Positions 8,929-59,954 of a stretch of DNA of 64,000 nt are shown one piece after another. The stretch's first letter is position 1. The number at the start of each line of letters is the position of its first letter. Both the position numbers and the translations under genes were made by a program. Under the pieces are notes generated by a model, which was not told where the DNA came from, did no database searches, and saw nothing but the letters and a program-made list of their open reading frames with translations. The stretch is from Phorcus lineatus (lineage: Eukaryota; Mollusca; Gastropoda; Trochida; Trochidae), in the NCBI GenBank assembly GCA_921293015.1, contig OV121097.1, forward strand, positions 13,083,940 to 13,147,939, given 5' to 3'.

Positions 8929-11900
8929 CTGAAAAAAAATAGAGCAATATATTTACTTGCCATGCTATTATGAAATAAGAATGCATTTTGACAAATATCT
9001 GTTGGGTTTGATGAGGTAATTTCATAGTTCATAAATGAAATGCTACCTAATAATGCAATACAGAATTTAGTCAATGTCATTTGGAATGATTGAGAACTGT
9101 TTAAAATAATTTTTAAATGTTATGCCTTAATTTTGAATGATTTATTACTAAACTAAAACTACCATAAAGGGATAAAAATTGCTTAGACAGTCTAATTAAT
9201 CAATATATAAAAATTCAATTTTTTTCTCTCCAAAATTCATCTTCATTTAAATCTATAAAAAAAATGAAGGAATTTTTCAAAATGTGAATAAAGTACATAC
9301 AATTAGCACTCATAGATTGATATCTAATTTACATAATATATTATTTCACTCCACATCTATGAATATATAGAAATATTAAATGAAATCAAGAAGAGAAAAT
9401 AAGACGGGAATGGATCTGAAAATGTTTTGAATATATTAATTTTCAAGAAACAAGCATTATGGTTAACTCCATGGCAGAACAGAGTGAACTAAGCTGCGCT
9501 GACCCTCAATGAAAAGTTTTTAAGACACTGTGCACGTTTTCCAATTTTACTTCCTAAAGATTTCCCAAATATAAACATTAGCTTGTGCAAAAGGTATTAT
9601 CATCAGAGGGTCAAATATCATGTTACTCTATAAGTTGTATGCTTCTGCTGAGGGTAATACGGTCTGATGTACCATCTTTGTTGCGATGTCGCCCGAGCCG
9701 GTAGGAGGGAGGGGCATACAACGTCTTTATCTTACCGTTATGTTTCACGTATTATTTACTTTGAAATAAACATCCGCAATGAGTGACCTTATATTTATGG
9801 GGCTGGTGATTTGCCGAACTCGCAGAGGACAATAACAAAGATCAGCTGATTGATCAGCTGGTGTGTTTGCTGAACTTTGCGATTATGAGGGTTAATTTTC
9901 TTACAATTACGTTGATAATCTGAATAGTACAGTTCTGAAACATTGACGATGTTTGGTTCATTTTCACATTAATTTGATTGTTGAGAACTGAATAATCACA
10001 AAAGAGGTCGTTTATGTCCAGATCTTCTAAGAAAGTAAGCTGGTTTATATGTTGGAGTTTACTCGGAGTTATCGGCAGCAATGACATCCCTCCTGACCTT
10101 GAACTTGTGACGGCTTTAACAGTACTTGCGAGAGAAGTTGGCTCGAAAGCTGGGGTGGAAGGACGCATCCCGCAGGATAAAGCGTGGCTCATTTGCATTT
10201 TTTTTCGGTTTGACACTTGTTGATAAACGGCAAGTGAACTCTAGGAAATGCCTGGGCTACCTACAGTGTCGACATCCTCAAAACTAGGATTTTGCCCCTT
10301 TTCCGTCAGTTACTCTTTCATAATTTTGGCTGATGATAAGTTTGATTTCTAGGTATTGTCAGGAATCACTTTTGAACGTTTTTCTAATATTTCTTTTTGA
10401 GAATGTGAAGCGAAGCGTTAATTTGTCGCCATTGTGAAGGCCAGCTGACGAATGTTTACAAACACACTCTTCACATCATTTGCATCCGCAACATTGAAAA
10501 GAAAATTACGTTAACCGAAGCCGGCGTCGCTGGATAGAGCTTATATAACAGAGTTTGGCAAATAGCTGTTGTTATGGCATGTTGTCTTGGACGGGCGACA
10601 CGGAATATTTTAAGTACAACGTTGACCAATGAAATTAAAGTATTTTACATAAAGGTAAGATAAATACCAATTATTTGTAGTTGCAGAAGAAATCATGTAT
10701 CAAGCATAAAATCTTGATACAGCAATTTTAAAGTGAACATCCTTTCGAGTAAGGGAAATGGATTTGCATAGATAGCTCCTTTTATTGATCTTAAAGATTG
10801 TTCCGCTGTTTGGAACCTTTGTTTTCCTCATTGTAAGATTACATTTCTCCATTAGGATCGAAATGTGCTTCAGTGTCCTTAAAGGAGCGCATGACTCCTG
10901 TGGCTCAATGAACATGATACATATATTTAACACACATAATTAACCATCCCCTCTGCACAAGGAATGGATAGAATAACTTTCAATCAGGCCCGCTTGAAAG
11001 AACACTTAAAACATTGACACACAAATATTGACAAAGACACACATATATTTAGATCACACGGACACACTGTAATGAGACATACTGCCCGATGGACAGACGG
11101 ACGCACAGACAGACAAGGGAGGTAAGCACCTAGAGATCTTCCACCCACCGGTGTTTTTCCAACATGGACTGATCTGAGGAGCAATATATACATACAACAT
11201 AAGCATGCTGTGCATTTCCCTAGATATAATTATACCTACCTGGGCAAAATATCAGATAACTGATAAAACTGATTCAAACCAAATATTCTGTCACGGTAGC
11301 TACCAAAAATTTAGTGCAACTATTCTGTCTGTCACAGTAGCTACCAAAAATTTAGTGCAACTATTCTGTTTGTCACGTTAGCTACCAAAAATTTAGTGCA
11401 ACTATTCTGTCTGTCACAGTAGCTACCAAAAATTTAGTGCAACTATTCTGTTTGTCACGTTAGCTACCAAAAATTTAGTGCAACTATTCTGTCTGTCACA
11501 GTAGCTACCAAAAATTTAGTGCAACTATTCTGTTTGTCACGTTAGCTACCAAAAATTTAGTGCAACTATTCTGTCTGTCACAGTAGCTACCAAAAATTTA
11601 GTGCAACTATTCTGTTTGTCACGTTAGCTACCAAAAATTTAGTGCAACTATTCTTTCTGTCACAGTAGCTACCAAAAATTTAGTGCAACTATTCTGTTTG
11701 TCACGTTAGCTACCAAAAATTTAGTGCAACTATTCTGTCTGTCACAGTAGCTACCAAAAATTTAGTGCAACTATTCTGTTTGTCACGTTAGCTACCAAAA
11801 ATTTAGTGCAACTATTCTGTCTGTCACAGTAGCTACCAAAAATTTAGTGCAACTATTCTGTTTGTCACGTTAGCTACCAAAAATTTAGTGCAACTATTCT

Positions 11901-14900
11901 GTCTGTCACAGTAGCTACCAAAAATTTAGTGCAACTATTCTGTTTGTCACGTTAGCTACCAAAAATTTAGTGCAACCATTCTGTTTGTCACGTTAGCTAC
12001 CAAAAATTTAGTGCAACCATTCTGTCTGTCACGGTAGCTACCAAAAATTTAGTGCAACCATTCTGTCTGTCACGGTAGCTACCAAAAATTTAGTGCAACC
12101 ATTCTGTCTGTCACGGTAGCTACTAAACATTTAGTGCAACCATTCCGTCTGTCACGGTAGCTACTAAACATTTAGTGCAACCATTCTGTCAAATTTGCCT
12201 TCTGGTAGCTACCAACAAGATTTTCTGTCACTGGAGAACATAATTCTTACCAAAAAAAAGTCAGTTTGATATGAAAGACAGTTTAGAAATTAAATAGTGT
12301 TTTCAATTGGCAAATTTCAAATAGGCAATTTTGAAGGAACCAAGAAAAATGACCCACTTGGTACAGTGGGGAGAGACGCCTACTGATACTCACATTGTTT
12401 ATAGAGCACGCCCTCCATGTCTGCTCGCTGCTTGTTGGTGGCCTTCAGCCTCTCGTTGGCTTCCCGCAGACTCAGCTTGGAGAGGTCGTACTGAGATCTC
12501 AGCTTCACCAAGTGCTCCTTCAGTTCGCTGTTCTGTAACGGGAAGAATTCATCCAAGTCAAATCACAATTCTCAATTTTGTTGCTATATTCAAATGCATT
12601 TGCTGAAATTGAAGAAATAATTTGGTCCTAATCATGTACATAGAAAAGATAGGGATAGATTGGAAAAGTTTAAGCTATGTTTGTTATGTTGTATCACAGA
12701 AGGTTTAAACAACTATGCATTTTGATAATTATACCTCAGCTCAGTTCAGTTATGTTCTCTGCTTATAGGACTTCAAAGTCAGGACCATATTTCTCAAAGA
12801 AATTTTCAAGAAGACCTAAAGCGTTGTTGCAATACTTCATAACTTTCTGTTTCTAGTGACAAAATCTCCAGCAAGCAAGATTTCAGTATTCTCCAAATGA
12901 TCATAACTCCTAAATCACTACTTTTTGGGGATGTGAAGTTGTGCTCAGATTAAAAGTTACGAATTGAAGCCTGACCTCCGAGGCTAGTTTGGGGTCGAAG
13001 AATTCCCCGAGCTCGTTGATAGGCGGGAGCTGGGAGAGCCAGAAGGCTGAGATGAGACGTTTCTCCTCCTTCATACAGATGTGTAGGTTCTCTGTCGCCA
13101 TCTCGATCTCTCGCAGCGTACTGTAGTCAATGTTCTGAACCGGAGAGGGAATAAAATGGTTACATGGATATCAATGATAAGGGTACATATGCAAACATTT
13201 GGAGCCACATTTCATCTTTTTTAAAGAATTTGTATTGAAGATTTCATTTTCAACAGTATATTGTGAGACAAAGTTCTCTGTTTTCCAAACTTGAACATTA
13301 TTATAATCATAATCTGAAGTGCTTGTAATTACTATTTGTTGCTCATATTTTGTACAAACATAACTTATGCTCCTACAATTATCAGGCCCTGATTTTGTAT
13401 TTACAACAAAGAATAAAAACTTATTCAAGTCATTCGCAGAATGAAAATGTTACACTAAACTACCATTATAAATGTTTATATTACAAGATATTTCTATAAT
13501 GTTGACTTATACATTGATCATTCATGAAAAACAACTGCATGAGCAAAAATAGACAAATTTGAGAGTTCATATTTCTGATCTTTCAACAATTCACAAATCT
13601 AAATGGTTTTCAAATATTCCATTTGGCATGTATACTAATGCAGCATACAAAAAAATTAATATCTAATATCATTGAATTAATATCTAAGATAAATGACAAA
13701 ATTATATAAGACAATCAACAGATTCAATTGACAAAAATTATATAGCAATCAAAATATTACTTTCCGCAAGACGGACACATTCCTTTACTTAATCAAAAAA
13801 AAAAAACTGTCATGTTAAAAGTATAATCTGCATGCAAACAGAGATGATGAGATGAAAATAGACTTCAACATTTCACGATGGCTTGTATTTACAGGCTATT
13901 GGAATCCAGAATTTTAAGTAATGATCATAACATGCAATGGCAACTAGCCAAAAAGATCTCATGTTAGATTACTGGTACCTTTTTGAGAAAGAAATGTACC
14001 AATGTTTTGTTTACAGATCAAAATCAATTATTTTCCCATTAAAAATGAATCAATGAATTACTAGTATATTTGTGTTGAAACTAATATATTTCATAAGATA
14101 TGCATGCAATAAACATGGGTCAATGAAATGCATGCCTCAATATATATATATTTATATATGTATAGATATGATTCAATTGTAATCAGTAGATTAACCCTCT
14201 TCTTTTTAAAATTTTTCAAAATCAATTAATGTTAAATTTTCCAGCTTTATTTTGATGAAATTCTTCTTAGATTTTCTAATGATTAGAACTTTTAAAACTG
14301 CAAATTCAATTAACAGTCACCATATATATATTAAACACTTGGTTTTACATTGACAAAATGATGGCGTACTTCAAGAAGACACATGAAGGAAATGCTGATG
14401 TGTTCCCCTAATTTCATGCTATCATCCAAGCATCCAACACTTAAACATATTTTTTCTTTTTTAACAAAACTCATTCGACATATTAGATTCTGAAGACAAA
14501 TAGGACAGAACAAGGGAACCACATGACCACAATGCTTGAAATTCGATACTTTTTCTAGCATAGCAAACATCACATTACTGGCTGCATGCAGATAGCAAGA
14601 CTAAGGAAATATACCTTCAGTAACTGTAGAAACAGAAAATGTATAGATTTATATATTTACCAAATAAATTCAATCTTAATTTGACAATAATACTTTATTT
14701 TGTGTTTTTCTTATCCAAATTCACATGAAACTTAAGCGCCTGACTTTGACACACCATTTCAAATACCTGTATTAAATATATAACACATTGATGTAATTCA
14801 TCCTCAAAATCATCAACACTTTGACAAAATTCCATCTATGATTTATCTTTACAAACCTAATACTTCTGACTCATAAACTCAACTAAGGGCCACCATTTCA

Positions 14901-23900: not shown

Positions 23901-26900
23901 ACCTTCTGGGACTGGTAGCGGACGGTTTCCTCTGTGGCAGCTAGAGTGTTCTCCACTTGCTTGATTTGTTCCTGTGCATCTTTCAGCTGCCTCTCAAGGA
24001 TCAGAGGATGATGTTCATGGGATGAATTGGAGGTCATAGGAGCTCTTTGCTTTGGCCTTGGGATCTGAGACACTTTTCCTCCACTTTTCACCGATGTGCT
24101 GCTACTGCTCTGGGATGCAGAGTTGACTCCACTTGAAGAAGCTCCATCTATCATATCAAGATTTGAAGCATCCTCATTCCAGGTCTGTCCTTTCTTGCTC
24201 TGATCAAAGGAAACTTGCCTTTGACCTGCTAGAAGCTTTCTTGATTTCTCCAGCTCTGATTTGAGAGCTTCAATCTCCCTAGCCATATCCACAATGAGAG
24301 CTGGGTTGAACCCTGACGGATAGTCCTCACTCTGACTACTGAGGTTGATCTGTTTCTTTAGGAGGTCATTAGCTTGTCTCACATCTTTCAGTTGAACCTT
24401 CATTCTATGTACTTCATTCTCCAGATCATTCAGATATGGCAGGCTGCTAAGGTCAAGCTGGGCAGTCTGGTCAAGGCCAAGATGAGATCTTAAGACCTCG
24501 TTCTCCTTGGACCTTCTCTCTAGTGATGACCTCAACTCCTGGACCTGTTTCTGCATCTGCTGAAAGTCGGCCATCGTTGGATCAGTATCATTCCGCCCAG
24601 GAATCTCTCGCACAGCACATTCTCCAAACACCTGGTCCTGAAGCTCATGGTTCTGTTTGAGAGCTCCAACAAGATCCTCCTGAAGCTGTTGAACAAGCTT
24701 CCTCAACATAGAAGACGACATCTTGGAGAGAGACTCTGTGTCTATGCCAGAAGCTGCTGTGCCTAGACCTGACGATAGTGAACTGTTTGGCGACACTAAC
24801 TCATTGAAGGATGCAATGGGCGAGGTTTGTGCATCATGGAAGTTTATATGGGGAGATCTCTTCAGTGAAAGATTCTTTGTTTTGGGTGAGAAACTTTCAT
24901 AACCATTTGGCAGATTATTCTCAGACTCTGATGATGGTGTGAGAAGACCAAGAGATATGCTCGGATCTACACTTATGGGAGATGTGTGGACATTCTTGTA
25001 TTGACTGTACTGAGGGGAAGTGCCTGTGGATCTACTGTGAGTCTGGACACTAGGGAATGGCGAGGTCTGGACACTGCGCTGGTCTGGTCTTGGTGATGTT
25101 CCTACACAACGTGAGTTGGTCACTGGCTTCTGTCCATTATGAAGATGTCTGTCAGATCCGCCAGATATTTCATGGTATCCACTTTCCCTCTGGCTGCTCC
25201 TAGATCTGACATGGGATTCAAACTCGGGTCTCGCACCTCTCTCCCACTCTGGGCTACTGTCAGAGTGTCTGTGATAGTGTTGGTTGTAAGAGTTAGTGTA
25301 GTTCACTGGAAATAAAAAAAAAAGTTCGGTATTATAGCTCTTTCAATGATAGCCATTACTCAACATTATCAAATTCTCAACCACAAATTTCAGTAAAACA
25401 AATGTCAACAAGAGAATGAGAATGAAAAATCTTTGTCTAATTCGTATCATCGTACCTAAATCAAAAGCTATTATTACTTTATATTATATTCTGCTAACTA
25501 TAGTAAAGTGTCGCAAACCTTTTTAGCATGCAAAACATTAAATGATGAGGATAAACCATATGCAGAAAATTTGAATATAAATCTTTTTATTCATCATTTC
25601 AGAATAACTCACCAACACCAGGGTAGCCTCCCCCAACAGAAGCTGAAGCTTGAGCACTAGACAATCCAGGATGCCCTTGACCAGGAGAATGACCATGTGC
25701 TTGTCCTTGACGTGCTTGACCAGGATAGGTCCCAGCAATAGGATTTTGCCCTTGAGGACTTGCAGGTGCTTGACCAGAGATAGATGTTTGAGCTTGACCA
25801 GGTGATCCTGATCCTTGTCCAAGATGTGTTTGACCAGAATGTTCCTGTCCTGGTGCTGGTGCTTGTCCCGAAGTAGATCCGCTGATCTGGTGCTCAAGGA
25901 CAAGTCTAAGGTTGTTGTTGCGCTCCACTCCTTCTTGAAGCTGTTGCCGCAGAGCTTGTACTGCTGCTAGCTCAGTGAGGAAGGCGGCCGACTGGTTCTG
26001 TGGAGCCTCTCTGTAACAAAGGAACATTGCATGCATGGTTATTTAGATCACTTTTTATAATGCATATTGTAACTTAAGTGTTAGAGAAATTTCCTCATGC
26101 ACCCTATCTCAGCTTGCAAGGCAGACCAGGCAAAAATTCATATCAGGGAGGTGGAACCAGAGGTAGGTAACATATATATCAACCATTTCATGTCCCATCC
26201 TGTATCAGTCCTCGACCAATTTCAGCACATAACTTAAGCTCTCAAAGTTGCTAAAGGCGGTGATATGAAATTACATATAATACAATCTTTAAAAATAGCA
26301 AAAAAAGAATTGTATGAAATTACAAAGACAATTTAATTTTAGAAAATTCTAATCCCTATTTCAAATACGAGCATCAAACACAAATCAAAAGAAACCTTGA
26401 CTAATTTATCAACAACTCTGATGTCTGATACAAAAGGCCTGACAAGTCACAGGTGAGGTATGTGAGAGAGGAGATAATAAAATATGCATGCGTTCTTGTA
26501 ACAGTACACCTGTATTGTAATTCACACCTGTCTGTCTCAATCTCTTTGTTGCACTTACAGTGACCCTACACTGATGTACGTTCTCCTCCTCTGAAATAAG
26601 TCTTCAGACATTTCATGAAATCTCATTTCTGTAATACTACCACAAATATCTAATATTATAATACATGTTCTCTTTATCACAACAAATTCTGAGATAACTT
26701 TTTGTATTCTTAATTGTTTAAAGATTTTACATGTGTTACACATACAGATGCAGGTTTGATGATCTGGTGAATAGCCATCTTTCCCTGCATGGGTTTCATT
26801 TGCACCAGTCTCTTTTCCTAGCTATTCTAAACGTTGCTGCCAACCCGTCAAAATGTGTGTTTTCAGTGCAATGCCCTGTTCGGTGTAAAGTTGCAATTCT

Positions 26901-35900: not shown

Positions 35901-38900
35901 AATAGAGAATGATAAAAAATAAGCGGTATAAATATTATTGAGAAGTGTTCAAAGATAATCTATAAAACACCAGTGGCAACAGATGTAACAAAGGGTTCAA
36001 CCTACCAAGAGTAATAAGGCAGTGGTACCAATAGACTGAGAGCCACAGTCAAGTGTTCAACCTACCCAGAGTAATAAGGCAGTGGTACCAATAGACTGAG
36101 AGCTACAGTCAAGGGTTCAACCTACCCAGAGTAATATGGCAGTGGTACCAATAGACTGAGAGCCACAGTCAAGGGTTCAACCTACCCAGAGTAATATGGC
36201 AGTGGTACCAATAGACTGAGAGCTACAGTCAAGTGTTCAACCTACCCAGAGTAATATGGCAGTGGTACCAATAGACTGAGTGCCACAGCAAAGTGTTCAA
36301 CCTACCCAGAATAATAAGTCAGTGGTACCAATAGACTGAGAGCCACAGTCAAGTGTTCAACCTACCCAGAATAATAAGGCAGTGGTACCAATAAACTGAG
36401 AGCCACAGCAAAGTGTTCAACCTACCCAGAATAATAAGTCAGTGGTACCAATAGACTGAGAGCCACAGCAAAGTGTTCAACCTACCCAGAATAATAAGGC
36501 AGTGGTACCAATAAACTGAGAGCCACAGCAAAGTGTTCAACCTACCAAGAGCAATAAGGCAGTGGTACCAATAGACTGAGAGCCACAGCAAAGTGTTCAA
36601 CCTACCCAGAATAATAAGGCAGTGGTACCAATAAACTGAGAGCCACAGCAAAGTGTTCAACCTACCAAGAGCAATAAGGCAGTGGTACCAATAGACTGAG
36701 AGCCACAGCAAAGTGTTCAACCTACCCAGTCCTGCTGGTGTTGCCTCCTGCTCCTTCCCCGGCTCCTGCTCCAGCTCCACTGTTGCCCATATCCTGGTTG
36801 AGAGTGATGAAGATCTGCTTCTCCTTCATCAACAGCTCACTCAGGTGTCGGATCTCATGCAGCTGCTCCTCCAGCAGGCGATACAGCTTCAATAAATCAA
36901 TCAATCAATCAAAACACTGTGCAGCTGTAATCAATCGATCAATTTATCAAAAACAAAATGCAGCTGTATTCAATCCATCAAAATACTGTGAAGCTGTAAT
37001 AAATTAATCAATCAAAACACTGTGCAGCTGCAACCAACTATTTCTTTTTTTAAAATCACTGTGCAGCTGTAAGCAGACAAATAACTTATCAAAAACACAG
37101 AGGAGCTATAATCAATCAATTTGTCTGTTAAAACCACTAAGCAGCTCTAATGAATCAATCAAAGCACTGTCCACCTACAAATAATAAGTGACAGAGTACT
37201 TTTCATAAAGAGTTTTGATGCATCCCCATCCCCATACATACTTATTTAGTTCTAATCATCTCGCACAAGATGCCTATTCACCTTTAATCAGAAATACTTG
37301 AAATCTAACTTTTACTTGAGATTATTACTTTGACAAGGTTGTAATTCCCTCTGTACCCACCTTCATGTCGTCTGTGCTTCCATTCTTCTCCTTGAGTTTG
37401 TTGATGAGGTCTCGGTTAGCTCGCTCGCTGTCCAGGACAGATTGGTTCTTCTCATTCATCAACTCCTGTAACAAACATACATTCATGTAGATGTCTTAAA
37501 AATCTATGATAAAGAAGCATGAGCAATTGAATGAAGGGATCTTTTGTTTTTGGAGATTCTTTATCATCCACTCTACTACAATTTAAATAAAAAAATGGAA
37601 ATATTCAGAAAGAGGCCTGCTTCGATTGTGATGGCCTAGCTACTAGTAAAGTCACAAATAATGATTAATAAACTAAATAATAAAATATTATAAACAACAA
37701 AAATAAGGAAGTCAAACTGTTGCTAGGCAAAAGTGATTTGTGTACATGTGCACATACCACATGTCACTACATAAGATTAATGATATGGGTAATAACTGGG
37801 CATAGCGCCATATAGATAATAGTATAATAGTAACTATTATTTAAGAGAGAAGTTTTGGTATCATCATGAGAGCAATCTGGGAAGATACATGTAGATAGAT
37901 ATTTCTTTTAAACTGTATGTCTTGAATACCATTATGCAATGAACTTTTCAAAAGCAAATAATAACTGAAAGACAACTTATTGTAAATATTTCATTCACTT
38001 TACCTCCAAAAGTTTATCCTTCTCTCGAAGCTGGTCCCGCAGTAATTTGAGTCTACTTCCATCAGACGTGTTGTACTCAAGGGCATCCTGTAAAAAAATT
38101 TAGTTTAAACAAAATTTTATTTAAGTAAGAAAAACAAATCAACAAATCATTGCCAACAATCCGAGTGGCAGAGTTACAGATATCTATGAAAAAAATGTGG
38201 CCAATTGACCACTGGCTAACATTAGGGTATTTCTGATATTAGACTATTAGTATAGTTCTAAACTTGTCCCTGCTGTAGGCGTTGTGTGACGCCCAGCAGA
38301 CTTTGACATATTGACATGTCAATGTTATTTGTCCCTTTGACATACATTTGATAAAAGTGTGTGACAAAGTTACTTTAATCCTAAATAAGTAAACATGAGG
38401 AGTGGGTGGATGAGATATTGTTTAACACCACTTAGGAAATATTTCAGCCATCGTGTAAAGTTTTAGGAAGACTCTTCAAAATATATATACATTTTTAAAA
38501 GAGAATCAAAACCTTGACACTTTTACATCGAATTGATAAATCATAAGAAAGTTGATGTTTATAAAGGACTATCATACATCATTGAATGATCTTTATTCAA
38601 TTTATAGCTTTAACTAGTTTGTGAAATTTGCTACTGTAACTACTTGCATCTAGAGAATCTAGATCTGCAAATTGACTTATGATAAACAACATCAAATCAT
38701 TGCTGTTTGGCTTTATAGTTCATCACCAGAAGTTTGAGAGAGTATGGCTTTATCTAAAGCAATATTTGTCCATCTACATCAGAAAATTTTGAGCCACTTG
38801 ACTAAGCAAAATCTGTGCTGTAAGAGCAAACAACTAACCTGAAGAGCAGCATCCTTGTCCGCCAGTAGACCCTCGAGATGTTTGACAGCCCGACCACGGT

Positions 38901-47900: not shown

Positions 47901-50900
47901 TTTGAGATCTGCTTGGACGACAAGCACAGAAAAGTTGGGTAAAAGCTACAGGGCCTAAATTAGCCAGTCATTTTGGCTGGAACAAGTTATGCCATGAGTG
48001 GGAAGATGACCATGGAATAGCAGAGGTTACAAACCTAGTTAAAATCAACATGCTGAAAGAAATAGTGGAGCTTCAACGATGACATTATTTACATGAACTT
48101 GTGCATCATTCTCATGTTTAAACAATAATCCCCAACGCATAACAGTATTTCATTGAAAATAATTTTATTGTTGTCCCCACGTCATATCTTTAAGTTCAGT
48201 ACTGTGTACTGCAAACAACCTCATTCCATCGATAGCTGTCACCTACCCCAAGCTCAGTGGTGAATTTCTTCTCCATTTCCTGAGCCTTCTGCAGTTCGAG
48301 TTCAAACCCCCTCTTCTCCAGTTCGAGCTGCCCAATCTTCTGCTGAGCTTCATTTAGCTGACCCTGGAGACCACTGGACTCCTAAAACAAACACAAAATG
48401 TCTCATACTTACTTTGCATATAATAAAGCTTAGAAACAAGCCAGCCTTGAAGATTATTTTCTCAACCATATTGCAATATCCAATAAGCTACCAGCTCTGA
48501 ACAATCACCATCACTTAAGATATGAAATAGGGCCATGGTTAGTATTTCATCAATCCTCATATCCTCAGATGAAATATTTCTCGTTTCACAAGTTCACCAA
48601 ATTGACGGGGATTCAAAACCTACACAGATGTCACTAACCAACAGTAAAGGGAAAACATAATCATTGTTTTCCACTCTCCCTCAAGTTTGAGGTTTCCAAC
48701 AAAGAAACCATGTAATTTTCATTCATTATGTCATAATATGGTCATAACTTGACATTTCTTCAACGAAATGTTTACTTCAGAGAGAAGATGCAAATAAGCA
48801 ATTTAGAGAGAGACGTTTTCTTTTAGGACATTGACATCTACATTAGAATATTTTACACTTTAAAGTTTTAAGAAGCTGCAAAATTTTCAGTTTTGAGGAT
48901 GACCTTATTGGAACCTGTCCTGCCTCAGGAAAGGAAGGAGCATATCAAAGGAAATATAAGTTATTTATTTCTTACCTTCTTCTTCTCCTGTTCTATCTGA
49001 GAGCGGTACTGATTCAGCTCCATCTCGTGGTTACTCGTCAAACTCTCCATGGCAGTGCTGCAGCATAAGCAGAATTATACACAACGAATTTACTACCTCC
49101 CACATAAACAGTGTAGTAGATGATAAACATTATGTACATGGGTCCAAACTACCAAACCCTACCACAAGTTACTTGTCAAGGCCTGTTTGGTAGGCTGTTG
49201 GTTCGGCCATCACCTCTAAGTTGTGGGTTCAAACCAATTTAATCAGCGTAATGGACTTACACACATTTAACATAGTTTTGTTTTTACAGTGTTATATTTT
49301 ATATCACACTATCTGACTGTACAAGATAGTTGACAAGACCTGATGGGTCAGTTGGTAGACTGATGGTATGGCAAATGCTCGACATTCAGGGTGAGGGTTT
49401 GAATCCCGCATGGGATTAAATCAAAAAAAGTACAGTCATAAGCCCCAATTCATAAAGTGCAATCCCAAACATAGTATGTAATATAAACAGTGTCATATTC
49501 ATCATAAGTGCAAAGAAAAAGTTTGTTGAAATACTACAAGGTAGAGGAATTGACTGAAGCTGTTGATGGTTTTGGAAACTGACCTGGCCTTCTTGAGGAG
49601 CTCGTGTTTGTCCATCAGTTCCTTCTTCAGACTCTCAACCTGCACCTTCAGCTCTATGTTCTGGGGACAAAATAGCATCACTGAATAATTGCACTGACAA
49701 AAATTAAAGTTAGATATACGGTGATGTGATTTCTGGTTAAAGACCCTTTTAAAGATATTAATCATTAATATCATAGCTGCTAGTATTCAGCACCGCATTC
49801 TGTGACCAGAATAGTATCACTGAATATTTGCAGAGACAAAAATTGATATATGGGGGGAAAATAACAAATATTGTTTTGAAGTCTAATCAGGCGTCTTTGA
49901 AGGGAAAATGATAATAGAAAAAGAAAAAGATACAGTTCTAGTCAGTCAATCTCATTAAAATCAGTCAAAACCTTATACTCATACCCGGCTGAGCTGACGA
50001 CTAAACTTATGGGGCTTGTCAAGTGACATGTCTGCTACCTTCATCTTTCACCGTCTTTACTTATCACAGACCTGCTTAGATATCTCAATATATACAAATA
50101 TGATTTCCTAACCTCATTGCTGATTGGCTGTAGTGAAAGGTCACTTGGCATGACCCCTATTGGGCAATACTCAGATTAGATACTAAACAATTAAATATCA
50201 GGTTCTACCTGAATTAAAATATTGAGTGTAGATTGAGAGATAATATAGGCTATTTGTAAAATACTAGGAAAAAACATATGATTCCACTTGACATTAACTG
50301 AATATTAGATGGAAGAAACTGAACATCAACAAATACGACACATACAGAATAGATGAATTTGTCAAGTAGAATGCATACCTCTCGCATTTCCTCCCCGACC
50401 AGAGAGCAAGCATAAAGAAGTCAGTCAAGATTCAAAGTGGATAGATGTACAAAATGAAAGTTTAAAGACTGTTTCTGTACAATTGGTGCAAACTACTACT
50501 ACTAAATTTTCTCTCAGTGAATTCTTAAACAAATATATCCGAAAACTTTATATAATTGTTCAATAAATGACTAAGTACACTTTCAAGCTTGTTACATTTA
50601 AAATTTTATCATAAACACTGAAAGAAGTTATTTTTATCAACATGGCAGCAATGTTAATTGACACCAAAATACAAGTCCCTGCTGCTGATGTGTGTATGAA
50701 TACTTACTGTTTTGAACACATCACCATCGCCAAACTTCTGCTGCATCCGCTCCTCCAAGAAGTAGATCCGCAGTTTGAGGCTGAAGTTCTCTTTCTTCAA
50801 CTCAGCAATTTGCTAAAACAGAAAAGAATGAATTCTCAAATCCATCTTTCACACAACCCAGACAAAATAAAACAAAAGAAAAGACATTTAATTTGAGATA

Positions 50901-55400: not shown

Positions 55401-56304
55401 TACAAGGGTTGGTTGGTCAAAGTAATAGATCCTCTCTAAGTCCCTCTGCTAAATATGATTGAAGTAATTGTATCAAACTATGTGAACAAAACTATTTTGC
55501 AAAAGATAATCATTTCCACCAGGATCTAATTATTGACTTTTCAAAGTTCATAACTGGACACAGCGGAGAAGTGGATGTTATTAGAGATCTTTGATCTTGC
55601 ATAAAAGACTGGAATCCATCTAAATTCCTCACTGAGATCATTGGTGATCAAGGTTTGTCCATGACTCATATTGCAAGGAACACAACCACCATTGATGGTC
55701 AGTTTACCTCTGAAGTTCACAACAATATCAGCCTGCAAATACTTATGCTGGACAATGAGGTAAAGCTTCAAAGGATCCTTGCTCAGTGCTTTATGACCAC
55801 ATACCAAAGATTAGAATCAATTTTATTTCCTAATTATAGAATCTTGGTATCAGATTTCAAGAATTGGTGCTTACTGTTATTTAGGACCTTGTCACTAAAA
55901 ATACAAAGCTCTATCTAGTGCTAAAGATGTGTGAATATTTAACATGAATTTGTCCATGAATAATTTGCTTGTATCGAATACATTTAATGGTGCCAGAAGC
56001 TTGAGTACGAGATAAATTGTATTCCTGATCTCTCAATTATAGCATGCATGTCCTGAAAAAACCAATTCATTGTCAAGGTTTTTCTCAGATTAAGGAAGTT
56101 TGTTCAATCCCTCATATAATAATTGCTTCAAATAGTCCAGGAATCTGCTATGTTTTTGTTGGTATTAAATAAAAGTTCATTTAATGCTCTACAACTCAGT
56201 TCAAGATTGTTCATTTATGAAAATTTAATAGCTGTTCAAAGAACTTGATCATTTTTGTATTGCATTATAGTTCTGGAATTGTAAAGTTTGAATAGGTCAG
56301 ATTA

Positions 56305-56354
56305 AGGTGAGGTAATATGGGGTTTCAAGAGTATTTCACTTATATTGCGGCTGC

Positions 56355-56413
<59 letters not shown>

Positions 56414-56632
56414 TGCAGGAAGAGAGCCTGCAACACTTTTTGGCTATGAATTGCGGTGAAACCTGTGGGCATTGGCTGGAATTTGCAAACCATGGTTGGT
56501 AATGCACTGAAATTCAGTGTAGCATTGCACCCAAACCCTACTGCAGACAAAGATTCTCTGCCCCTTGCGGGATTTGAACCACTGATCTCTTGATCAAGAG
56601 CCACTGCGCTAACCACTGCGCTGTACGGCCCC
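56305..56632 (-). mobile_element. SINE-like family, most complete copy with tRNA-like head
   Basis: On the minus strand it starts GGGGCCGTACAGCGCAGTGG TTAGCGCAGTGGC and continues to box B GTGGTTCAAATCCCGC, a tRNA-derived head of about 75 nt. A conserved body follows (GCCAATGCCCACAGGTTTCA), then a tail ending in CCATATTACCTCACCTT. An (AT)n(AC)n microsatellite of about 53 bp (56357-56409) has expanded inside the body. Confidence 0.8.
56357..56409. repeat. (TA)n(CA)n microsatellite
   Basis: About 11 TA units followed by about 15 CA units, inside the SINE-like copy. Open frames through it are artefacts. Confidence 0.95.
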
Positions 56633-58279
56633 AGATCAGATCAAGGTTACTGTGTACCTTCTTTAAATGTAGGACAACATCTCATAAAATGACGAAATCA
56701 ACTTAGTGTCATTCAAGATGTTCCCCATATACTAACTTCAACACCCCTTTATATTCAAACAACTAATTCATATTTCATAGGTGCTTACTGTCAAATTTTC
56801 TCTCCACTGTCTGTTATGTAGTGAACACCATGTCGTTCCATTAATGACAGCTTGACACTCTATTAGGTCATCTAGACCTATCAAGTAACCAAATTAACAA
56901 TGGCAGCATGACATACTAGCAGCTTCTTCTGGAAGCATCAATTCTGACAACCCTGTCGATTTATTCCCAGACATCTAGTTCAATACTCCACCACCAGAGA
57001 GTCACAAAGGCTGGCTGGTAATAACCTGTCTGCAGGTGGCAAATTCGGCCACCAGGGGGCCTTTATGTTCTCAGGAGCTGATATCAATGACATAATCCAT
57101 CTGTAGCCGAACTTACCAAATTCAAAGACTTGATTAAGAGTCTTGTATTCTCTCGTGCCTATGCTTGTGCCAAAGCATGCTGAGGTATCTGATAAGGTAG
57201 CCTATGAACCATAAGGCATGAGGTCTTTGAGTCAATAATAGAACTGAGTGTTGGAGATGTATGAGTTGAAGGGAAGCTATTAAGGTCATATTCACATACT
57301 TCAGGACATTTAGTATTATTGAAACTTGCAATAAAATTGTGATTAAGATTTATGGTGTCTGCTGTGATGGGAATGAAATTTATCAATTAAGCATTGGAAC
57401 ACTCATATAGAACACTAATCTACAAACCAAGAAATAACATAAGTTATTATTGTATAAAAATTTTCTATCAGTATTTCTAAGTATACAAGGACATAAACAT
57501 CCCCTTATCTTCTCCAAACATCCTTATCATATCTTAAGATTTTGTTTGTTGTCTTGTGAGTGTTTTCAGCATGTTCCTGCTTGTGCCGGAAAACCAGTGG
57601 TGTGTAATTTGAAGGAGCATTGACCTAAAACTTGGTTGGTGTCAACTAGGTGGTACAATTATAACTCTTTGTGAGTTCTAATTACCATACTACGAGGTTA
57701 CAACATTGTATACGTTTCCTAGAAGCAATGAGGCATGAACATGACTTGGTATTGTAAATGTGTATATATGAATATATGCAGAATCGGTGTATGAACAAAA
57801 GACATTCATAAATTCAGGATTTAATACCTAGGAATTAGGATATTTCAAATCATCGTACAAGAGTAGACATACTTTGAAATGTAATTTGGGATAGAGCCAG
57901 CAACGCCATAAAATGTTGATGGAGATACTACTTATCTTGGCTGATGTCATTGGATGAAATTTGAGGATAAGAGGCCTCTAACAATTGTGAAACAGTGCCA
58001 AAGACAACTGTTCTAAAATTTCTCTTGCTCAAAAGGCTTCTGTATCATTCTGACTACAATGAGGAAACTGAAATGAATTTGAGGTCAAAGTTTTCAATAT
58101 CAAAAATGGACAAAAATAATTATATTCACTAGTTTTACAGAGAAGAGGCAAAGAGGTTTTTTTGTCTAATAACAGCAGTAAATAGGTAAATAAAATAATT
58201 AATAAATGATTAGTTCTTAATGCCAAACATTTCTTCCATTTATAATGTTTGTAGGGTTCCAGGATCTGGGGTAGTTTTA

Positions 58280-58460: not shown

Positions 58461-59373
58461 GCAAGAATCCGTTTTGGATGGGTTGATAAAGATGTAAATA
58501 AATCAGGGATTCATTACACATTTTTTCTTCCTGGACAAACAGATAGAGGTAAAGATAGTTAATTCTGGAAAAAATTGTTGTACTGAAGGAGAGTAGGAAG
58601 AGCTGTAAAGAACAAGCAAATTAATCCTTTATGCCTTAACAAATGAATTGATACAAGCCAAAGATATGATAGACATGCATCAAGACGCTTACAAAATCAG
58701 GTTTTGCCACTCATTATCAAATAACAGTCACATCAGAAACACAAGAACATAATAAAAGAGGCGAGATATCCTGCCAGATGAGTTCTGAACCAGCAGACAA
58801 AGGGTTAAGAAAGTATCCATCCCAAACCAATATACTATTGAATCTGCGGACCATTTGTTCAATAACCTGACGCTATAAAGCAAGAGGTACTTGATTCACT
58901 TCCATGATTAGCAGTTTCATGGCACAGCATAACTAGATTAAGGCTTGATAGACAGCATTTGCTGCCTTGGTTAATTCAATCTCTGTTGATGAGCACAGAC
59001 AGTGGTTCACATCTGCAGTGATAACATGGCTCCATGAAACTTCTTTGAGTAGAGTAACATCTAAACATCTGACACTGCAGGATGGCAACAGTATAGATCA
59101 TAGACTGACTCTTAGTCTCAAAAACTATCTGAGCTAATACTGAATGGTAGTCTCACAAACTATCTGAGCTAATACTGAATGGTAGTCTCAAAAACTATCT
59201 GAGCTAATACTGAATGGTAGTCTCAAAATCTATCTGAGCTAATACTGAATGGTAGTCTCAAAAACTATCTGAGCTAATACTGAATGGTAGTCTCACAAAC
59301 TATCTGAGCTAATACTGAATGGTAGTCTCAAAAACTATCTGAGCTAATACTAAATGGTAGTCTCACAAACTAT

Positions 59374-59548
59374 CAGGGATTGGGAAAGGCAGGGGCCATG
59401 GGCCATTTTGCACATTGGATGAAAAAATGGCCAATTCAAATTTGAAATTTTACCATTGCTATTAATGGGAATGGCCCATTCAAAATTCCGAAAATGACTA
59501 AAAGTTCTATAGATGGCCCATTATCAAAGGTGTCTTTCCCAATCCCTG
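59374..59548. mobile_element. hAT-like MITE, copy 1
   Basis: 175 bp with perfect 15-bp TIRs CAGGGATTGGGAAAG / CTTTCCCAATCCCTG, flanked by the 8-bp direct repeat CAAACTAT (59366-59373 and 59549-59556). An 8-bp duplication and CAGGG ends fit the hAT superfamily. No coding frame. Confidence 0.85.
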
Positions 59549-59591
59549 CAAACTATCTGAGCTAATACTAAATGGTAGTCTCACAAACTAT

Positions 59592-59766
59592 CAGGGATTG
59601 GGAAAGGCAGGGGCCATGGGCCATTTTGCACATTGGATGAAAAAATGGCCAATTCAAATTTGAAATTTTTCCATTGCTATTAATGGGAATGGCCCATTCA
59701 AAATTCTGAAAATGACTAAAAGTTCTATAGATGGCCCATTATCAAAGGTGTCTTTCCCAATCCCTG
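59592..59766. mobile_element. hAT-like MITE, copy 2
   Basis: Same 175-bp length as copy 1, very few differences, same 15-bp TIRs and the same CAAACTAT flanks. Produced by duplication of the surrounding array, not by a second insertion. Confidence 0.85.
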
Positions 59767-59954
59767 CAAACTATCTGAGCTAATACTGAATGGTAGTCTC
59801 ACAAACTATTGGAGCTTAGGTAGATCTCAGACTAAACCTTAGCCTAAATAGCTGTTGGAGCTCAGAAGGAATGGTAACCAGAGTCCTGCAAACTATTGGA
59901 GCTCACAATGGATCTCTAAGTTTCAGAGTTGAGATTGGGTTTAATTTTTGCAAA

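Follow-up and report, generated by a model that had tools for sequence, protein, structure and literature searches.

How is an exon recognized when both of its splice sites are copied, over and over, in the introns that flank it? This question is raised by a 161-nt exon located in the 64,000 nucleotides of DNA analysed here (hereafter the window), which the original prediction placed between an array of acceptor-like repeats and an array of donor-like repeats, and for which it proposed that changes in copy number could alter the splicing of this exon, taken to code for a Gly/Ala linker. The locus offers a naturally occurring test of exon choice in the face of identical donors and of acceptors that score better.

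The gene that hosts this exon was modelled with a home-made exon chain, which combines codon scores with splice matrices retrained from their initial values. The minus strand carries the gene, the exon and both arrays, a strand that the original prediction does not name, and around the exon 36886→36726 the model shows coiled-coil exons, most of them in phase 0. Three other exons of this model are needed here (a slash marks a splice junction throughout):

50725..50812, minus strand: exon of the model that carries centrosomin motif 1 (Cnn_1N, Pfam PF07989), which identifies the gene family
37361..37465, minus strand: upstream exon of the chain, phase 0 to 0, ending AAG/GTGGGT (donor score 12.2 bits)
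25613..26010, minus strand: next downstream exon of the chain, with a high coding score and a matching phase (Pfam 28.1 bits, cut-off 27)

The match to Cnn_1N in exon 50812-50725 has an E-value of 1.1e-10 (41.9 bits, cut-off 28.5), and the exons joined around 36886→36726 match CC_CDK5RAP2 (PF23246) with an E-value of 1.2e-9 and scores of 38.9 and 40.8 bits (Pfam cut-off 27). Tested for membership of the CDK5RAP2/myomegalin/centrosomin family, the host gene thus exceeds the cut-offs of both domains, which identifies it as a CDK5RAP2/myomegalin-like centrosomal scaffold, in agreement with the original prediction. The dosage of genes of this family is important for centrosomes. The C-terminal part of CC_CDK5RAP2 is held by exon 26010-25613, which requires exactly one base to be joined in frame to 36726 over an intron of 10.7 kb; the small low-scoring exons that the chain proposes between 36726 and 26010 are probably spurious.

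The exon under study and a part of it that may bear on its recognition can be described as follows:

36726..36886, minus strand: exon of 161 nt, LYRLLEEQLHEIRHLSELLMKEKQIFITLNQDMGNSGAGAGAGEGAGGNTSRTG, with phases that match those of its neighbours, an open joined peptide and a Pfam match across the upstream junction
36744..36783, minus strand: purine-rich stretch coding for Gly and Ala, whose end lies 18 nt short of the donor; a candidate exonic splicing enhancer

The exon is entered in phase 0 and leaves 2 nt over at its exit, where its donor reads TGG/GTAGGT, and 99 bases of its sequence occur only once in the whole assembly (957.8 Mb in 74 contigs, of which the window is part). When the upstream exon is joined to the first residues of the exon (LYRLLE and following), the peptide gives one unbroken match to CC_CDK5RAP2, in which residues 6-66 align with profile positions 17-76 (20.8 bits, E 4.7e-4), and the exon alone, read from 36886, matches the same family with 17.3 bits. 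Homology therefore suggests that the exon starts at 36886, with a support that is moderate because both scores lie under the Pfam cut-off of 27. In the purine-rich stretch, the density of GAR-like triplets amounts to 0.40, a value reached by 2 of the 31 reference exons (median 0.23).

On the donor side, the exon runs directly into a tandem array:

35989..36729, minus strand: 60-bp minisatellite starting at the exon's donor (delimited by TRF, register and pairwise identities)

TRF describes this array as 12.4 copies of a 60-bp period with 93% matches, and the exon's donor belongs to its first unit, as had been claimed. The heptamer GGTAGGT occurs 13 times, first in the exon's own donor and then in all 12 intronic units, nine of which read TGGGTAGGT (TGG/GTAGGT) and three TTGGTAGGT (TTG/GTAGGT), and the earlier count of nine identical copies is therefore correct. 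At the edge, exon and unit have CTGG in common, which means that the array extends about 4 nt into the exon; beyond these letters no similarity between exon and unit was found by alignment (score 15; shuffles averaged 16.1). The units are 90-100% alike, and the identical ones are exon-proximal (units 1 and 3; units 2, 4 and 6), while units 9-11 are 97% alike mutually and 90% like units 1-6. This pattern suggests recent turnover through an exon-proximal higher-order repeat of 120 bp (units 1-2 equal to units 3-4). All six matches to the 60-bp unit in a whole-genome search fall inside the array itself.

Other features considered within this array were rejected. A decayed 13th unit beyond 36005 scored 28, against 19.5 ± 4.2 for shuffles with a maximum of 35 among 500, which is not significant. 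For a hairpin that would hide the decoy donors, the stem GUAGGUUGA/UCAGUCUAU is present in the best fold of unit 1, yet the sequence folds no better than its shuffles (z of 0.90, 0.92 and -0.10 for three whole units and 0.21 for one 40-nt piece); locally, the real donor is the most open of the 13 (0.013 versus 0.000-0.004), a difference too small to use. Acceptors within the units could have created pseudo-exons of 30 nt; every AG at the CTCTCAG position scored 0 bits or less, and four other AGs within the array scored 0.3 to 1.3.

On the acceptor side, the repeat is shorter in period and more degenerate:

36887..37174, minus strand: degenerate acceptor ladder with a period of about 39 nt (defined by spacing and a shuffle test; TRF rows 36895-37037 and 36884-36981)

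Seven AG/CT junctions stand in register, at 37144, 37105, 37066, 37027, 36993, 36963 and 36924, separated by 39, 39, 39, 34, 30 and 39 nt and followed after another 38 nt by the start of the exon at 36886; by eye, an eighth unit may be made out at 37174 (AG/GT). The tetramer AGCT is found seven times in 37200-36888, against a mean of 0.84 and a maximum of 6 in 2000 shuffles, and since the junctions were picked by their AGCT, it is their spacing that constitutes the independent evidence. Together, the registers of the two arrays bear out the predicted layout of an exon lying between acceptor-like and donor-like repeats. The description of the upstream copies as “ATTACAG/CTG-like” stands for the seven in-register AG/CT junctions but was generous in its wording, as five of the seven read NCAG/CTG or NCAG/CTT and the others GAG/CTG and TAG/CTC. 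The ladder is GATT-rich, of low complexity and decayed (69% matches and 15% indels by TRF), and it overlaps the exon by about 3 nt, CTG only. A query made of 36898-37043 also matches 37053-37180 at 70%, and the two genome-wide matches to the acceptor repeat both lie inside the ladder, the second being this same upstream part. A dispersed element was thus rejected as the source of the repeats, given that both units are found at one locus only; as the search skips very common words, this result is strong rather than absolute. TTGAT motifs are present 11, 15, 19 and 23 nt ahead of 36886 with no AG in between, and among five copies inspected, AG-free TTGAT motifs also precede 36993, 36963 and 36924 and are missing from 37066 and 37027. 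Several units of the ladder may be small 3′ splice-site cassettes, the last of which would feed the real exon.

How strong are the authentic sites with respect to their copies? Splice sites were scored with matrices built on 31 other modelled exons. The donor at 36726 scores 5.2 bits, a value that five of the 31 reference donors fall short of and that nine decoy donors equal; the other three decoys score 3.9 bits. The acceptor at 36886 (GAAG/CTG, preceded by a tract of the GATT repeat) scores -7.2 bits and falls under all 31 reference acceptors (lowest leave-one-out score -2.8), a contrast that is biased, as the reference exons were computed and partly chosen by splice score and the chain took 36868 at this exon. 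In order from the most upstream, the seven in-register copies reach -6.8, -6.6, 2.8, 1.3, 1.6, -0.2 and 0.5 bits, and all of them hence outscore 36886 on the same matrix, five by at least 7 bits; this comparison is independent of the reference minimum but depends on the matrix, in which A at position -3 is strongly disfavoured. The junction is preceded by ACAG or GCAG in five of the seven copies versus GAAG at 36886. Out-of-register AGs of the ladder score higher still (5.5 bits at 37058 and 4.1 bits at 36985). Tolerance of the copies by simple strength thus fails for 36886, since the authentic acceptor is outscored by them, and it is puzzling that the acceptor supported by homology should be a degenerate member of its own ladder.

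As a control, the 1 kb next to each edge of the 32 modelled exons was searched for copies of the 18-mer that spans this edge. The exon 36886→36726 is the only one of the 32 for which either boundary word has at least two copies, with 12 donor matches and 6 acceptor matches, five of them in register and the sixth out of register at 37581 (shuffles: 0.00 and 0.25, respectively). Single matches were obtained for two other exons, 49660-49584 (one per side) and 21707-20662 (one acceptor).

The consequences of using a copied site can be read from the frame. Splicing of the upstream exon to an AG between 37327 and 36916 would extend the exon and, for each of the 30 such AGs examined, bring in a stop codon, and all 12 decoy donors read ACT GGG TAG immediately. 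If the exon is skipped, the frame is shifted and early stops follow; acceptors that lie within the exon and keep the frame, among them 36868 and 36862, open no stop. Since the array's own sites are all unproductive, copy number can at most vary the share of productive message and not the Gly/Ala linker, which contradicts a reading in which isoforms of this linker would change with the length of the arrays.

Repeats that copy a splice-site boundary have been reported in amphioxus and in human. The amphioxus “mirage” minisatellites, as portrayed in excerpts of two reports, occur in Adh3, the globin genes BflGb6 and BflGb9, troponin C and PGBD5 and are made of tandem units of 10-160 bp at 5′ or 3′ intron-exon boundaries, many of them with AG/GT signals (PMC3087553, PMC3902484, the latter citing troponin C as a mirage case). 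They are unstable in length, and the Adh3 data together with RT-PCR of the globins are said in the excerpt to suggest that regular splicing is undisturbed by them (PMC3087553). In PGBD5, repeats of 60 and 108 bp abut splice sites that belong to different exons, for which the excerpted text offers no proof from transcripts (PMC3902484). In intron 18 of the human gene ABCA7, a VNTR with a 25-bp unit starts at the donor, retention of one unit leads to a premature stop, and skipping of exon 19 increases with the length of the VNTR, according to the available portion of that report (PMC5954066). Dual-specific splice sites in tandem repeats have also been described, for instance in UBC, where one AGGT of a coding repeat serves as donor and acceptor (PMC10809524, in part).

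The arrays described here resemble the mirages in that their units cross the intron-exon boundary, by about 4 nt at the donor and less clearly at the acceptor (CTG and the 38-nt register), and in that splice signals are kept in the units (12 of 12 donor copies and seven acceptor junctions); PGBD5 also has a 60-bp repeat abutting a splice site. In contrast, the amphioxus globin mirages, as far as the excerpts describe them, involve one boundary per exon, whereas both boundaries of a single exon are copied here. Moreover, the unit of BflGb6 is reported to include the 5′ part of exon 2 and its cluster edges to escape homogenisation, whereas the overlap between exon and unit is here limited to 3-4 nt and the units nearest to the exon are among the identical ones. 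Amphioxus is a cephalochordate; the host genome of the present locus is, to judge from its COX1 protein, probably that of a protostome, and probably of a mollusc. As in ABCA7, the array opens at the donor GT of the exon and repeats this GT (in the one assembly analysed), each unit starts with the donor, and retention of one unit would lead to a premature stop. However, the ABCA7 unit is of 25 bp, lies on the donor side only and has a measured effect of length, whereas the present case involves 60-bp units and both sides of an exon. Splice motifs recur at the repeat period as in UBC, but with donor and acceptor copies located in separate intronic arrays. Word searches of the open literature gave, among the matches listed and as far as their text was accessible, no case in which both edges of one exon are copied. 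While boundary-copying repeats as such are known, the two-sided layout, probably in a protostome, is therefore the unusual part; it would probably extend boundary-copying minisatellites past amphioxus and human, and past chordates if the protostome reading is right.

The explanation that we regard as the most likely, and as reasonably probable, is that two independent boundary duplications of different age produced a two-sided mirage, which is mostly tolerated and leaves 36886 and 36726 as the main splice sites. Short tandem duplications overlapping each edge of the exon would have grown into two separate minisatellites, the one at the acceptor old and decayed, the one at the donor young and homogeneous; two events appear to be required, as the arrays differ in unit and in decay. 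Because the duplicated segment would have ended a few bases inside the exon, every unit would carry a splice site without any selection for decoys. On the one hand, the authentic AG, weak as GAAG is, would be recognized as the first one past the last TTGAT run, whose motifs 11-23 nt upstream may act like a branch site. On the other hand, the authentic donor would be the one closest to the purine-rich end of the exon, and such an end may tie exon definition to the acceptor and the donor lying nearest to it. Any leak into an array copy would result in a premature stop, and growth of an array would cost at most some message. This explanation is supported by the register of both arrays with the edges of the exon, the finding of their units at this locus only, their different decay, the AG-free TTGAT motifs ahead of 36886, the unproductive frames of the array copies, and the amphioxus mirages, which are reported at 5′ and 3′ boundaries as compatible with normal splicing. 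Several observations count against it: exon and units share 4 nt at the donor and about 3 nt at the acceptor, an overlap so short that part of it could be due to chance; the acceptor at 36886 is outscored by its copies, at least three of which have AG-free TTGAT motifs as well; and the exon chain itself took 36868 as the acceptor.

Published precedents point both ways as to an effect on splicing, the mirages of amphioxus being reported to have none and the VNTR of ABCA7 a length-dependent one. It is worth weighing, although unlikely, that the arrays modulate output, the decoys diverting transcripts, in a proportion set by copy number, into messages with a stop codon and acting as a brake on a centrosome gene, much as VNTR length shifts splicing in ABCA7. 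Decoy donors identical or nearly identical to the real one, in-register decoy acceptors that outscore the real acceptor in seven of seven cases, and frames that are unproductive for every one of the 12 donor copies and the 30 upstream AGs examined speak for this reading, as does the ABCA7 VNTR, located at the donor, with its retention of single units and its rise of exon 19 skipping with length (PMC5954066, in part). However, the same excerpt gives the retention of one unit in ABCA7 as constant with length (PMC5954066), and the mirages are reported, in the accessible text, without disturbance of splicing (PMC3087553, PMC3902484).

We consider it improbable that the 5′ edge of the exon is misplaced, i.e., that the acceptor is 36868 (GGAG/GAG) or 36862 (GCAG/CTG) and the mirage exists on the donor side only. 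The first of these sites scores 7.3 bits versus -7.2 at 36886 and is the one chosen by the exon chain itself, and both are in frame without a stop. Nevertheless, a start at 36868 removes LYRLLE, and neither the upstream-joined peptide nor the exon alone then has a listed match to CC_CDK5RAP2 (from 20.8 and 17.3 bits, respectively), while the score of the downstream-joined peptide is cut from 40.8 to 37.0 bits; 36862 scores merely -1.7 bits (the homology comparison covered 36868). Furthermore, the register of the ladder runs out at 36886, 38 nt past the last copy. Very doubtful is a copy-number rheostat, in which the weak acceptor, the stronger decoy acceptors and the identical decoy donors would set the amount of productive CDK5RAP2-like message, with array length as the dial.

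Fourteen minisatellites (period 15-200, at least 3 copies, score of at least 100) were found in 240 kb sampled from two contigs with a GC content of 0.352, i.e., 58 per Mb, from which contact within 5 nt is expected for about 6e-4 of boundaries and, assuming independence, on both sides of one exon for about 4e-7 of exons; for an assumed number of exons in a genome this size, hundreds of one-sided contacts would be expected and, given the same independence, hardly any two-sided ones. That unrelated minisatellites or insertions of dispersed repeats came to abut this exon and resemble its splice sites by chance has in its favour the expected abundance of one-sided contacts and the GATT-rich, low-complexity acceptor repeat, but is very improbable in view of the register and the copied sites on both sides, the rarity of two-sided contacts, and the lack of either unit at another locus in a search that skips very common words.

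Scans of the window with Rfam and, for tRNAs, with ARAGORN in its bacterial setting returned nothing. At 1126-2022 on the plus strand, an open frame of 298 residues may belong, as an exon, to a neighbouring gene transcribed from the opposite strand; it matches no Pfam family (best LAG1-DNAbind, E 0.11). With AGR and TGA taken as sense codons, the mitochondrial COX1 on contig C74 of the assembly has an open frame of 516 residues; translation table 2 (vertebrate mitochondrial) cuts it at an AGR codon, while it is open in tables 4, 5 and 9 and further in 14, and no single code is thereby singled out. An open frame at 56302-56640 on the minus strand contains VALDQEISGSNPARG, which resembles translated tRNA-type SINE repeats. 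Two other arrays are present in the window. A 35-bp array (7.5 copies) at 59113-59809 runs into a repeat of 218 bp (98% matches over 2.2 copies), and a 41-bp minisatellite at 11287-12190 (22 copies, 93% matches) touches no high-scoring modelled splice site and lies about 200 bp past the modelled donor 12394.
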